Positions 6,654 to 64,000 of a stretch of DNA of 64,000 bases are shown one piece after another. A program made the position numbers and the translations under genes. Source of the DNA: Ignavibacteria bacterium RIFOXYB12_FULL_35_14 (lineage in GTDB: Bacteria; Bacteroidota; Ignavibacteria; Ignavibacteriales; Ignavibacteriaceae). The DNA lies in the NCBI GenBank assembly GCA_001803045.1, contig MHAR01000033.1, positions 1-64,000 on the forward strand. Reading direction: 5' to 3'. Each line of letters begins with the position of its first letter. The first letter of the stretch is position 1. A model generated the notes under the pieces. That model saw only the letters and a program-made list of their open reading frames with translations. It did not search any database and was not told the origin of the DNA.

Positions 6654-8006
6654 ATGTCATTGTCGAAAAATATTTTTAATAAAATATTTTTAAAACTGAG
6701 TTATCTTAGTACAAATAAGTATACCGAAAACACTTATTGGTTACTTGCCGAGAGAATAATTCGCATTAGCATTAATCTTTTCATCACCATTTATCTTGTT
6801 AGATATTTAGGTCCTCAAAAGTTTGGGCTTTTAAGCTACGCAATAAGCTATTTTAGTATCTTTTCCAGCTTTGCGTCATTAGGGTTGGACAATATTCTTG
6901 TTAGAGAATTGGTTTCGGATGCTGACAAAAAAAACCTGCTGCTTGGAACGAGCATTTACTTAAGATTAATAGCGGCTTCTGCAACAATCCTATTGGTAAT
7001 GATAGCCATATTAGTTACCGGAGAGGATTTCTTAACATCCATTTTAATTATATCCATTTCATCTTCAGTAATTTTTCAGAGTTTTAATGTTATCGATTAT
7101 TACTTCCAAGCAATGGTACAATCCAAATATGTAGTGTATTCTCAATTTGTTAGTTTGATCATTGCATCTGTTGTAAAAATTCTTTTGATTTATTACAAAG
7201 CAAACCTGATTTACTTCGCAATTACTATTACTTTGGAATCCATATTGCTTGCATTAGGTTTATATTTCATTTATAAAAAATATAATTTCGGCAAATTAAA
7301 CTGGCAGTTTAGCTACGAGGTGTCTAAAAAATTGCTCAAAGATTCTTTTCCATTAATTTTAAGTAGTATAGTAATTGCCGTTTATATGAAGATTGATCAA
7401 ATTATGATAAAAAAAATGCTAACTGATAGCGAGCTTGGATTTTATGCGTCGGCAGTGAAAGTTTGTGAATCGTTTTACTTCATTCCGATGGCTTTAACTA
7501 ATTCGGTTTTTCCTGCAATAATAAATGCGAAAAAAAAAGGTGAAAAATTCTATAAAATTCGGTTACAGCAGCTATATAATTCGGTTACGTGGATTTCAAT
7601 CGGAATAACTATTCCGATTACGATTTTTGCTCCGCAAATTATCACCTCGCTTTATGGAGAAAAATTTATTTCGGCCTCTCCGGTTCTTCAAATATACATT
7701 TGGTCTACCGTTGCAACCTTTTTGGGAGTAGCGAGCAGTCAATTTTTAATTGCAGAAAATTTTACAAAAATATCATTCTATCGAACTCTGATTGGAATGA
7801 TCACTAATGTTGTCCTGAATTTTATTCTGATACCCAGAATTGGAATTATTGGTTCTGCAATTGCTACGTTGATATCTTATTCAGCAGCAACATTTTCTTT
7901 GGTTTTATGGAAAGATACATATAAGCAAATAATCATGATGATCAAAGCAGTCTTTTTAATTTCGATTATTGATTATTGGAAAAATAGAAAGGAGCTCTCT
8001 AGATAA
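6654..8006 (+). CDS. Wzx-like oligosaccharide flippase (MATE/MOP superfamily)
   Basis: 450 residues made of about 12-14 hydrophobic segments. The N-terminal region (YLVRYLGPQKFGLLSYAISYFSIFSSFASLGLDNILVREL) and a mid-protein segment (YMKIDQIMIKKMLTDSELGFYASAVKVCESFYFIP) are the conserved blocks of polysaccharide-biosynthesis flippases. It should move lipid-linked repeat units across the inner membrane. Its presence fits a Wzx/Wzy-type pathway, but no Wzy polymerase is recognisable in the window, so that gene or the export genes must lie elsewhere. The end of the gene overlaps the possible start of the following methyltransferase-like gene. Confidence 0.92.
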   Translation: MSLSKNIFNKIFLKLSYLSTNKYTENTYWLLAERIIRISINLFITIYLVRYLGPQKFGLLSYAISYFSIFSSFASLGLDNILVRELVSDADKKNLLLGTSIYLRLIAASATILLVMIAILVTGEDFLTSILIISISSSVIFQSFNVIDYYFQAMVQSKYVVYSQFVSLIIASVVKILLIYYKANLIYFAITITLESILLALGLYFIYKKYNFGKLNWQFSYEVSKKLLKDSFPLILSSIVIAVYMKIDQIMIKKMLTDSELGFYASAVKVCESFYFIPMALTNSVFPAIINAKKKGEKFYKIRLQQLYNSVTWISIGITIPITIFAPQIITSLYGEKFISASPVLQIYIWSTVATFLGVASSQFLIAENFTKISFYRTLIGMITNVVLNFILIPRIGIIGSAIATLISYSAATFSLVLWKDTYKQIIMMIKAVFLISIIDYWKNRKELSR

Positions 8007-8658
8007 AATAAAAACATTAATAAAGCTTATTTTCGAACCCAGACTTTTAAGAGCATTGCTTTTTGCAAGGCATAATGGGTATCTAGTTGATACAGGTTGG
8101 AATAATTCGTTTGTTTCTAAAGAACCATTGGATAAAAATGGTAAACCAATTCCCTGGCTTACTTATCCGGCGATTTCTTTTTTGTCTGATAGATTAAGTA
8201 TAAATAATGATATTTCATTATTTGAATATGGCAGTGGCAATTCAACTATTTATTACTCGCTTAGGGTAAAAAAAGTAATTGCTGTTGAACATAATAAAGA
8301 ATGGTTTGATAAGATAAAAAATCGATTAAATAAGAATGCGGAAATTATTTTCAAGGAAGTTGATGAAGATAGAGATGGAGATTATAGTCGCACAATAAAA
8401 TCTACCAATGAAAAATTTAATATTGTGATCATTGACGCAGAAGAAAGAGTTAATTGCATTAAAAATTGCTGTGATAGTCTTACCGAGGATGGTGTTATTA
8501 TCTTAGATGATTCTGAAAGAAAAGAATATACGGACGGGATTGAATTTTTAAGTCGTAAAGGATTCAAACGGTTAGACTTTTATGGAATAGCTGCTGGGAT
8601 TATGTACCAAAAGTCTACATCAATATTTTACAGAAAATTAAACTGTTTGAATATTTGA
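7969..8658 (+). CDS. SAM-dependent methyltransferase-like protein
   Basis: 229 residues. The core has a class I methyltransferase layout: FEYGSGNSTIYYSL (motif I, glycine-rich), VIAVEHNKEWFDKI (acidic end of strand 2), FNIVIIDAEERVNCI (motif around strand 4) and DGVIILDDSERKEY (strand 5). The target is unknown; a small molecule or sugar of the polysaccharide is inferred from context. The start is uncertain. A TTG at 7969 gives a 38-bp overlap with the flippase, but the only good ribosome-binding sequence (AAAGGAG, 7988-7994) lies inside the overlap, with an ATA at 8008 at the right distance and no ATG nearby. The C-terminal half is unaffected. Confidence 0.75.
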   Translation: MIIGKIERSSLDKIKTLIKLIFEPRLLRALLFARHNGYLVDTGWNNSFVSKEPLDKNGKPIPWLTYPAISFLSDRLSINNDISLFEYGSGNSTIYYSLRVKKVIAVEHNKEWFDKIKNRLNKNAEIIFKEVDEDRDGDYSRTIKSTNEKFNIVIIDAEERVNCIKNCCDSLTEDGVIILDDSERKEYTDGIEFLSRKGFKRLDFYGIAAGIMYQKSTSIFYRKLNCLNI

Positions 8659-59735: not shown

Positions 59736-61220
59736 TCAGCATGAAAACTGCATAAACAATTCTTTTAGCTTAATCTGAATCAACTCCCATGCTTCCCTAA
59801 CATGCCGTTCTTCTGTTCTAATTCCTGAAACAGATAATCTCAAAACATGTTTTCCGTTAAGTTTTGTATGCGAGATGAAGAGCTTACCAGTTTCATTTAT
59901 TCGCTGCAATAGATTTTCATTCAACTTATCAATTTCCGCCTCAGAATTAATTTTAGCAGGATGAGCACGAAAACAAATTGTGCTGAAAGGTGTCAGAGCC
60001 ATTCTCTCAAAGTCTGGATGTTTGTCTATCCATGAGGCAAACAATTGTCCAAGCCGGATATGTTCTCTTAGTCGCTCGATGATGCCGTTGACTCCGAAAT
60101 ATCTTATGATGAACCAAAGCTTTAATGCCCGAAATCTTCTGCCGAGCTGAATTCCGTAATCCATTAAATTTTCTACGGAATTGTCTTCTGCTGTTTTTAG
60201 ATATTCCGGCACAAGACTGAAAGTACGCTTAAGAACATCTGGTTTTCGTATATAAAACAAACTAAGATCAATTGGCGTAAACATCCATTTGTGTGGATTA
60301 ACAACAAGCGAGTCCGCGCGATCAACTCCTTTAAAAATGTATTTCATTTCAGGAAGCATTGCAGTTACACCGGCATGAGCTGCATCCACATGAAGCCAAA
60401 GCCTTTCCTTCTCACATATGTCTGCAATTTTATCAACAGGATCAATACTAGTTGTAGATGTTGTTCCAACTGTAGCAACAGCGCAAAATGGACGCCATCC
60501 GTTTTTCCTATCTTCAATGATCGCCTCAGATAGTTTTTCGGGAATCATTTTAAACTCATTATCGACAGGAATTTTTCTCACACCATCAATACCAATTCCA
60601 AGCAGAATAGCTACCTTTTCAATTGAGGAATGAGCATGTTCAGAAGCATACAATCTCAACTTCGGGATTTTTTCTCCGCCAGATAATCCCTTTTGACGAA
60701 AGCTATATTCCGTCACTTCTTCTCTTGCTGCAGCAATTGCATGCATTGAGCTGACAGATGCAGTATCATAAATAATTCCCCAAAACGATTCCGATAGTCC
60801 GAGCATTTGCCGCATCCAATCAACTGTAACTCGCTCAAGCTCTGTTGTAGATGGAGAGGTTTTCCAAAGCATTCCGTTTGTGTTCAAAGCGGCGCTAAGC
60901 ATTTCGGCTAAAATTCCAGGCCCGCTTGATGTTGAATTAAAATATGCCATGAAGTTTGGGTGATTCCAATGAGTAACACCGGGAATAATTTTCTCATCAA
61001 TATCCGCTAATATTTTTTCAAAACTATCCGATGTTCTTGGTGGATTTTTCGGCAATTTATTTTTTATGTCGCCCGGTTTGATGTCTGGTATAACAGGAAA
61101 CTTCTCAATGTCTGTGAGATATTCGGCTATCCAATCAATCATTTTATATCCGTGCTCTTTAAATTCTTCTGCCGGCATATCGCCAAATACGTTTGATTTT
61201 GATTTGTTATTAGAATTCAT
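59736..61220 (-). CDS. PLP-dependent amino-acid decarboxylase (group II, aromatic-L-amino-acid decarboxylase-like)
   Basis: 494 residues. FGDMPAEEFKEHGYKMIDWIAEYL, GVTHWNHPNFMAYFNSTSSGPGILAEML, WLHVDAAHAG (Asp279) and VVNPHKWMFTPIDLSLFYI with PLP-binding Lys311 are the AADC/DDC family motifs. It decarboxylates an aromatic amino acid (Tyr, Trp, DOPA-like) or a related substrate. In-frame start alternatives exist after residue 15 (MPAEEF). Its ATG overlaps the stop of the large upstream nuclease-motif gene by 4 bp (ATGA at 61220-61217 on the minus strand), so translation is coupled, an odd pairing for a metabolic enzyme. Confidence 0.93.
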   Translation of the reverse strand: MNSNNKSKSNVFGDMPAEEFKEHGYKMIDWIAEYLTDIEKFPVIPDIKPGDIKNKLPKNPPRTSDSFEKILADIDEKIIPGVTHWNHPNFMAYFNSTSSGPGILAEMLSAALNTNGMLWKTSPSTTELERVTVDWMRQMLGLSESFWGIIYDTASVSSMHAIAAAREEVTEYSFRQKGLSGGEKIPKLRLYASEHAHSSIEKVAILLGIGIDGVRKIPVDNEFKMIPEKLSEAIIEDRKNGWRPFCAVATVGTTSTTSIDPVDKIADICEKERLWLHVDAAHAGVTAMLPEMKYIFKGVDRADSLVVNPHKWMFTPIDLSLFYIRKPDVLKRTFSLVPEYLKTAEDNSVENLMDYGIQLGRRFRALKLWFIIRYFGVNGIIERLREHIRLGQLFASWIDKHPDFERMALTPFSTICFRAHPAKINSEAEIDKLNENLLQRINETGKLFISHTKLNGKHVLRLSVSGIRTEERHVREAWELIQIKLKELFMQFSC

Positions 61221-63862
61221 ACCATATTTACAAAGTTTATATTTATTACTTGAACCTTTTTGCCCTTCTGATTTTTAGAATTGAGCTTGTCTGCATAATC
61301 GCTCAAATATTTTGTCACTTGGTTTATATCCAGTCTTTTGCTGGTTTTAGGATGACTCCACTTTTTATCTGCGACATTAATTAAGAGAAAAATCCCATAC
61401 TTAGAGTTGATATCCTTCAAATAAGAATTAATCAATTGATTGCTTATAGCCCTTGATAATTCTTGTACACTATATTCATTTGCTATTTTAATTTCTATTC
61501 CAACAATAAAATTATTTTTACGAATTCTTAAATCTGGCTTTTTGAGATCATCGACTTCCTCTTCACGTGTAACTGAGTAATTGCCTGTCCCGATTAATCT
61601 CAGTCTGTCCGCAATCCACTTTTGAAATTCTGATTCTTTCGTTTTAGAATTAAAAAGTCCCCTGGTGCTAACATCACCTTTCTCAATATGATCTTTAATC
61701 TCGTCAATTTTTTCAAGGGTATAATAAAACAATTCTTCGTCACTTATTATTTCTTTGGTAAATTTTGAATAGAACTGAGCCACATCTTGAGGCCGCCATA
61801 CCTCAGATTCCAACTCTTTTTCGGCTTTTCCTTTTGCTAAGTACTGAAATACATCTCTTGATGAAACTAAGTCCGATTCTTTAGATAGGCTAATAAGTGC
61901 ATTATAAGATTCTTTGCCAGGAATAGAAAGTAACCGATCTAATAATCTTCCTCTAAAGTGTTGAGCATCATCTCTTACATCGGGAGTATATCCACCGAAA
62001 TAAACACTATCATTCTCCTGTTTTATGTGCTTATATACCAATCGCAGAAATTTAACCAACGACTTAATCTCATTAATTTTGCCAAGATCAAAAGATATGA
62101 AATATGAATAATGTCTCGACCTCGATAATTCACCGCAAAGGTTGACCATCAAATCATAGGATTCTTTGGCATTCAATTTCTTTAGTTTTTTTTCTAAATA
62201 ATTTACCGCGTTTGTAAAGTCAAGATTTAACCATGCATCAAACCAAACGATAAAAGCATCGACATCATTTTTAATATTGTTCGTTTTGTTACCGATCAGT
62301 TTATTTACTTTTCCCGAGTCTTTTAGTGACGAATTAAGTAAAATCGATAGGGCATAACTCACATTGATTAAATGATCGGGTGTTTCGGTTTTGATAAGAT
62401 CATAAATTTTCTGACTAGCCAATTCTTTTAGAAGAATTTCTGCGTGTACTAAAGTTGCCAAAACCTCATGTGGAATTGGTTTTTCTTTGGGGGTGTTAAA
62501 TTCCGATTCTATACACACGTTTAAGATTTTCTTAACAGCATCTGGAAAAACGACAGCAATATCTTTTAACCATGAGGGAAAATTATTTATTTCCCTTGTG
62601 GCATATCGGGTTGCCAATTCAGCATCTACCTCTGAAAAAGCAGTCACATCAAATTTATCTGAAATCTCTATTGCAATTCCAGAAAGACCAATAATAACTC
62701 CATATTCAGTTTTATTTCTATCTTCTATTTCATGAGGCAATGGGGGCGACCATGATCTCCAGAATACTTTAAAACCCTCCTTAGCTGCATGTTTCACTTC
62801 AATACCAAACATATCCTCAATAGCTTTAAGGTTATTCTGGCCCCACGAATTTCTTGAACCTTTGGCAGCCATCTTTTCAACTAAATAGTGTAATGTGTTT
62901 AATTCCTTCCCCTTGCGTAGCGAATCTAAGTGGTCTAATAAATACTTTTTGTTCTCGTCTAATTGAATTTCTTGTTGATGCTTTAATTTTTTTTCATCCC
63001 GCTCGATTTTTGCCATGAACTTGTCTGGTCTAGGTTTTGGGGGACTCATGAAATCTATATAATGCTTTGTTAAGTCTTCATCGGTATCAATTATTGATTT
63101 AATTTCTTCATATCTTTCGATGGAAGCATTTTCATCACGAAGAAGATGTAAAATAGAATCAAGTAGTACATGTTTATTCGATAAGTCTGTCGCCTGTATC
63201 AGGTCCCCAATTAACCAGTTAATATCATTTTTACCTAAATACCAGAAATCGTCGAAAAAGTATTGGAGGTTATATAAATATTTGACTTCTAATCCTTTGC
63301 TCTTCTCATGTTGAATTCTCCTATAAAAAAGTTCTCTTTTCAGAGTAGAAAATTTCGAGATTAGTTCTTTTACTTTTACTTTTTCTAAAAGATAATCGCC
63401 AAAATGCTTATGGTAAACTCTCAATATTTTTACTGCATCAGCAAGAACATCAATCCTAAGTTGTATTTCAATTTTTGAACTTAGTTCTCTTCTTAATAAC
63501 GAAGATATTGCCCCACTAATTTCTCTATAATGTATATTTATCGTTCTAAATCGTTCATCCTTATTAGAACTCTGAAGTTTATCTTTGACTATTATTACAA
63601 GTACTTCAAGTAAGTCTTCTAGTTTATCGCCCGAAATGTTAAACCAGTTATGTTCGGCAATATCATATAGAACTTGGGGAATGCTCCTCCAAGATTCATT
63701 CCAGTTACTTTCTGACTTTTTAACAAACTTGATTAGCTCATCTTTGTCTAGATAATTAGGATAACATAGCTCAACAAAATCACCTGCAAGGTTATACGGT
63801 AAGTTCTCAGTATTGGTTATTATATATTCTTTTGCTTTTTCTAATGCAAGGGAATCCTCCAT
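61217..63862 (-). CDS. Large protein with helical repeats and C-terminal PD-(D/E)XK nuclease motif; 5' end probably incomplete
   Basis: 881 residues from ATG 63862. Most of it is alpha-helical, HEAT-like in rhythm, with no ATPase motif in the visible part. The C-terminus (about 745-830) carries a nuclease-type site: Asp777 in KKPDLRI and Glu790-X-Lys792 in VGIEIKIANEYS, after a glutamate-rich strand (TREEEVDD). No standard start lies upstream, yet the 33 codons before 63862 are coding-like in this frame (NILKDNKGEVAIRGSALTAI) back to an in-frame TAA at 63980-63982. The gene therefore probably continued further left and is broken, or is the 3' part of a longer STAND/NACHT-type protein. Its overlap with the decarboxylase gene suggests one transcript. 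Confidence 0.7.
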   Translation of the reverse strand: MEDSLALEKAKEYIITNTENLPYNLAGDFVELCYPNYLDKDELIKFVKKSESNWNESWRSIPQVLYDIAEHNWFNISGDKLEDLLEVLVIIVKDKLQSSNKDERFRTINIHYREISGAISSLLRRELSSKIEIQLRIDVLADAVKILRVYHKHFGDYLLEKVKVKELISKFSTLKRELFYRRIQHEKSKGLEVKYLYNLQYFFDDFWYLGKNDINWLIGDLIQATDLSNKHVLLDSILHLLRDENASIERYEEIKSIIDTDEDLTKHYIDFMSPPKPRPDKFMAKIERDEKKLKHQQEIQLDENKKYLLDHLDSLRKGKELNTLHYLVEKMAAKGSRNSWGQNNLKAIEDMFGIEVKHAAKEGFKVFWRSWSPPLPHEIEDRNKTEYGVIIGLSGIAIEISDKFDVTAFSEVDAELATRYATREINNFPSWLKDIAVVFPDAVKKILNVCIESEFNTPKEKPIPHEVLATLVHAEILLKELASQKIYDLIKTETPDHLINVSYALSILLNSSLKDSGKVNKLIGNKTNNIKNDVDAFIVWFDAWLNLDFTNAVNYLEKKLKKLNAKESYDLMVNLCGELSRSRHYSYFISFDLGKINEIKSLVKFLRLVYKHIKQENDSVYFGGYTPDVRDDAQHFRGRLLDRLLSIPGKESYNALISLSKESDLVSSRDVFQYLAKGKAEKELESEVWRPQDVAQFYSKFTKEIISDEELFYYTLEKIDEIKDHIEKGDVSTRGLFNSKTKESEFQKWIADRLRLIGTGNYSVTREEEVDDLKKPDLRIRKNNFIVGIEIKIANEYSVQELSRAISNQLINSYLKDINSKYGIFLLINVADKKWSHPKTSKRLDINQVTKYLSDYADKLNSKNQKGKKVQVININFVNMV

Positions 63863-64000
63863 TCCTATAATAGCAGTTAACGCCGATCCTCTGATAGCTA
63901 CCTCTCCCTTATTGTCCTTCAGAATATTTAACAGTAGAGTAACAGAATTTTTTAAACTTTCCTTCTCTGCATAATCTAATTAGTAAGAGTTTAATGTGAC

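Follow-up and report, generated by a model that had tools for sequence, protein, structure and literature searches.

A distant HyoA-like NACHT gene, apparently split by one frameshift, beside an amino-acid decarboxylase gene in an Ignavibacteria bacterium

The locus and its two reading frames

The window, that is the whole stretch of 64,000 nucleotides analysed in our study, corresponded to positions 1–64000 of contig C33 in the assembly of Ignavibacteria bacterium RIFOXYB12_FULL_35_14 (G000), and the contig ran on to position 95,798. Towards its right end, the window contained a gene for a group II PLP decarboxylase of the aromatic amino-acid decarboxylase type (59736–61220, minus strand; PF00282, 4.9e-103). 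An ORF of 881 aa was present on the same strand at 61217–63862 and overlapped the start of the decarboxylase gene by 4 bp, as an earlier note on this DNA had claimed. The 881-aa ORF was found to belong to one HyoA-like NACHT anti-phage gene, of which it covers the last two thirds, and it matched positions 544–1427 of the NCBIfam model NF058534 ("NACHT domain-containing antiphage protein," 1430 positions) with 568.2 bits (E 4e-170). The N-terminal part was present in an ORF of 535 aa on the minus strand (C33:63909–65516, ATG at 65510), of which the window held 63909–64000. This ORF contained Walker A and Walker B motifs and matched positions 1–511 of the same model with 531.6 bits (E 4.3e-159). 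Elsewhere in the window, a polysaccharide flippase ORF (6654–8006) was overlapped by 38 bp by the following 229-aa ORF (7969–8658), which had no family match.

The six-frame search with NF058534 placed the N-terminal match at model positions 1–512 and the C-terminal match at positions 501–1427 of 1430. Since the two frames matched one HMM with overlapping model positions, a frameshift and not chance explains the arrangement. On the minus strand, the N-terminal half ended at C33:63942 and the C-terminal half began at 63976, and the place of the shift, where both frames matched the family model, was 63942–63976. A run of six A nucleotides was found inside this stretch at 63948–63953. The C-terminal frame was open for 39 codons upstream of the ATG at 63862 (63863–63979, minus strand), up to a TAA at 63980–63982, and it contained no ATG, GTG or TTG between the TAA and that ATG. 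In the alignment over the junction these 39 codons matched the intact relatives, and the last residues of the N-terminal ORF did not match. The earlier note had described coding-like sequence past the ATG, an alternative open frame and a possible frameshift at the window edge, and all three descriptions held. The other frame was open across the edge, and extension of the contig past the window, as the note had proposed, revealed the NTPase upstream in the shifted frame. Judged from the sequence, the two ORFs belong to a single gene, broken once by a frameshift at the run of six A nucleotides or next to it.

Domains and family membership

The 535-aa ORF contained the Walker A motif GEAGTGKT, with the P-loop at residues 54–61, and the Walker B motif FFLDSIDE. 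The P-loop lysine was conserved in 66 of 68 relatives and the DxxDE of Walker B in all 68. The sequence is too divergent for the Pfam models, and the scores were therefore under the gathering thresholds for both nSTAND3 (17.1 of 27.2 bits) and NACHT (14.2 of 26.7 bits). The fold of the N-terminal part was searched with a relative (L077) in place of the window gene's own sequence, and it matched NLRC4 and NLRP proteins with Z up to 15.7 (NLRC4: Z 15.7, 376 aligned, rmsd 6.9) and Avs4 with Z 9.7. An NLR/NACHT fold is thus predicted for the N-terminal part of the family.

The AlphaFold2 model of the 881-aa ORF had a mean pLDDT of 88 and contained an alpha-solenoid at about residues 1–735, followed by a predicted PD-(D/E)XK nuclease at about residues 740–881 (61217–61660, minus strand). 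The nuclease domain contained E767, D777, E790-x-K792 and Q809-L-x3-Y814. The residues E767, D777, E790, and K792 were identical in 68/68 relatives, and Q809, L810, and Y814 in 67/68. The Q-L-x3-Y motif resembles the RecB-type motif. The model showed helices and strands in the order H743–758, E763–766, E778–782, E785–793, H799–814, E822–829, H846–863, and E869–876, which fits the PD-(D/E)XK core. Fold searches with the whole C-terminal part returned solenoid proteins only, among them HEAT-type matches with modest scores. Sequence searches found no credible counterpart among solved nucleases or those in Pfam, and the PDB profile search with the nuclease domain gave chance matches only. Because the whole-part fold searches were filled by the solenoid, the assignment of the tail to the PD-(D/E)XK nucleases is a prediction from motifs and topology. 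The nuclease site that the earlier note had proposed (D777, E790, and K792) was found at exactly these positions and was invariant in all aligned relatives, its helical-repeat body corresponded to the predicted alpha-solenoid, and the structure prediction, made on the whole ORF, agreed with a nuclease core.

The bNACHT proteins have been described as carrying the effector N-terminally and the sensor C-terminally (PMC12169576). The HyoA-like gene shares with Avs4 (8dgf) and the other Avs/bNACHT proteins a NACHT/STAND NTPase with helical repeats, and both include effectors that are nucleases of the PD-(D/E)XK superfamily. However, its nuclease is C-terminal and its NACHT module N-terminal, and no N-terminal effector precedes the NACHT module, the P-loop being already at residues 54–61. 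The order is opposite to that of most described bacterial NACHT proteins.

The match over the whole HyoA model was made by the two ORFs jointly and not by a single continuous protein. The scores of the halves added up to about 1100 bits, short of the 1200 bits set as the curated cut-off for NF058534, and the gene is for this reason named HyoA-like. Its parts follow one another as in HyoA along all 1430 model positions, and it has the same Walker and nuclease residues. It differs in being split into two ORFs, in its score, in its divergent sequence (at most 27% identity to any relative found) and in the FastTree tree, where it forms a long branch close to the base and its placement is unsure. 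Similarity to EruA (NF058535) was weak in both halves (98.5 and 97 bits), far below the score for HyoA. The literature search on HyoA and EruA returned nothing relevant, and DefensePredictor does not use these names; with no HyoA paper found, the defence role rests on the family name given by NCBI, according to which the gene would protect against phages. The window gene is a distant relative of HyoA, a virus-defence gene of known kind, and the locus is largely ordinary.

The insertion site and the decarboxylase gene

In the congener G001, the genes for a transporter, the decarboxylase and an acyl-CoA synthetase were present in a row without a gap. A stretch of 4.46 kb in our genome (C33:61188–65650; window part 61188–64000) corresponded to only 39 bp in the congener by blastn collinearity, and the block beside the synthetase was identical in both genomes (27/27 nucleotides). 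An imperfect direct repeat of 16/17 nucleotides, TGAATTCTAA(T)TAACAA, brackets the HyoA-like gene on the minus strand, with one copy at 61204–61219 and the second near C33:65553–65568. The start codon of the decarboxylase gene lies within one copy. The repeat may be the scar of the insertion, and its score, which was reached by 0.9% of the shuffles, is suggestive only.

A second, different gene was found at this site in G031, a member of another genus, where the same two genes, for the decarboxylase and the acyl-CoA synthetase, flank one for a histidine kinase (L152:2293–5721) that has about seven PAS domains. The site was considered as a defence hotspot, and this was rejected because the G031 insertion is not a defence gene. 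The collinear congener also lacked a further stretch of our contig at L002:12908–14433 (C33:70907–72432), which contains a 312-aa ORF with no Pfam match, so that the two genomes differ by a single gene here as well.

No defence gene was recognised among the genes read to the left and right of the HyoA-like gene. Elsewhere, the immediate neighbours of HyoA-like genes included Gabija GajB, type III methyltransferase, type III restriction, Fic, SIR2-like and other defence proteins. Integrases, transposases and housekeeping genes were also present among these neighbours. Members of the family thus occur at times in defence islands but are usually solo genes.

The decarboxylase and the nuclease are encoded on the same strand with the 4-bp overlap, and the earlier note had speculated that they might act together in defence. 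The decarboxylase is a full-length member of its type, with DOPA, tyrosine and aromatic-L-amino-acid decarboxylases as the closest solved structures (7xin, 6eei, and 6eew), and is not part of the defence gene. Of 59 relatives, 53 gave a match to it (full-length at 50–78% identity in about 30 of them), whereas HyoA was found in 1 of 97, and the congener possesses both flanking genes without HyoA. In addition, no decarboxylase gene was found in the 91 HyoA-like loci (1.04 Mb covered). A two-gene defence operon is scarcely credible against these results, and the 4-bp overlap results from the insertion. The coupling is incidental and the decarboxylase is an unrelated neighbour. The partnership considered in the earlier note is not supported, as the pair did not recur in these 91 loci. 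Its reading of a broken STAND/NACHT gene with a nuclease tail and helical body stood. Since the insertion, read-through transcription that starts in the promoter region of HyoA may well extend into the decarboxylase gene.

The nature of the split and its meaning

A single-protein search of the genome contigs found no relatives, and an alignment-based search of them found 80. Relatives were read from the same phylum, from plasmids and a phage-labelled contig, and in addition from 80 contigs of genomes and one of viral origin. Intact relatives were single ORFs of about 1440 aa. In the last group, of 81 loci, the gene was a full-length single ORF in 66, and most of the others were cut by contig ends. 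A break at the same place as in our genome was found in 0/81. The split is therefore a private frameshift, in either a decaying gene or an erroneous assembly. The coding sequence was undamaged on either side of the shift, which is accordingly very recent or an assembly error.

In the latter case the cell would have an intact HyoA-like protein, and the interpretation would change on one point alone, the reality of the damage. The lesion is single, it lies at or beside the run of six A nucleotides, and every motif was kept in both halves, all of which argues for an error. However, the 36 intact ORFs of the window contained 123 A/T runs that were six nucleotides or longer (94 of exactly six), so that such runs are not generally misread, which is a mild counter-argument. 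Decay also occurs in this stretch, as a nearby transposase has an in-frame stop. We consider an assembly error a serious possibility but not the favoured one; the reading frame may be intact in the real cell. The transposase, an IS200-like Y1 type (L002:11413–11880; C33:69412–69879), appears to be decayed.

The split could also be functional: if ribosomes occasionally shift by +1, or slippage occurs, at the A run, some full-length protein would be made, or the halves could act as two cooperating proteins. The position of the A run within the overlap of the two frames and the undamaged state of both halves are consistent with this. Nevertheless, no relative shares the split, the sequence requires a +1 shift and not the common -1 shift, and the 39 conserved upstream codons contain no start, whereas a start at the ATG at 63862 would lose conserved residues. 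A functional split is therefore unlikely. It is very unlikely that the split is kept on purpose, with the NACHT switch and the solenoid-nuclease made as two proteins and joined only occasionally, when a frameshift or slippage takes place at the A run; if true, the purposeful split would hold a toxic nuclease scarce until needed.

Different damage was observed in other members of the family. The HyoA-like gene of Rhizobium daejeonense (L088) contained a different split, and most of the Burkholderia glumae plasmids listed (L185:1401–7427 and similar) contained an ISNCY transposase inside the gene. The gene was intact in B. glumae strain BGR39S (L068). Loss seems to be common in the family.

One gene in two frames, with intact motifs, predicted folds and a congener without the gene, is directly supported. 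The locus very probably contains one HyoA-like NACHT/STAND anti-phage gene that arrived alone, landed between the decarboxylase gene and the divergently oriented acyl-CoA synthetase gene, with the decarboxylase downstream by accident, and was afterwards broken by a single frameshift, which left one ORF for the NACHT module and another for the solenoid and nuclease. The split copy is presumably inactive. In bNACHT proteins the sensor, NACHT module and effector act together, and a PD-(D/E)XK effector degrades DNA upon phage sensing (PMC12169576). By analogy, the helical part of an intact HyoA-like protein would bind a phage-made ligand, the NACHT module would act as a nucleotide-state switch followed by assembly, and assembly would activate the nuclease at the C-terminus for the cutting of DNA.

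With this gene, a named anti-phage family gains a damaged member that branches deeply. The gene also adds a detail on that family, namely a conserved, predicted PD-(D/E)XK nuclease at the C-terminus behind an N-terminal NACHT module, with the usual order reversed, and the locus shows that a one-gene defence insertion can mimic an operon with a metabolic gene.
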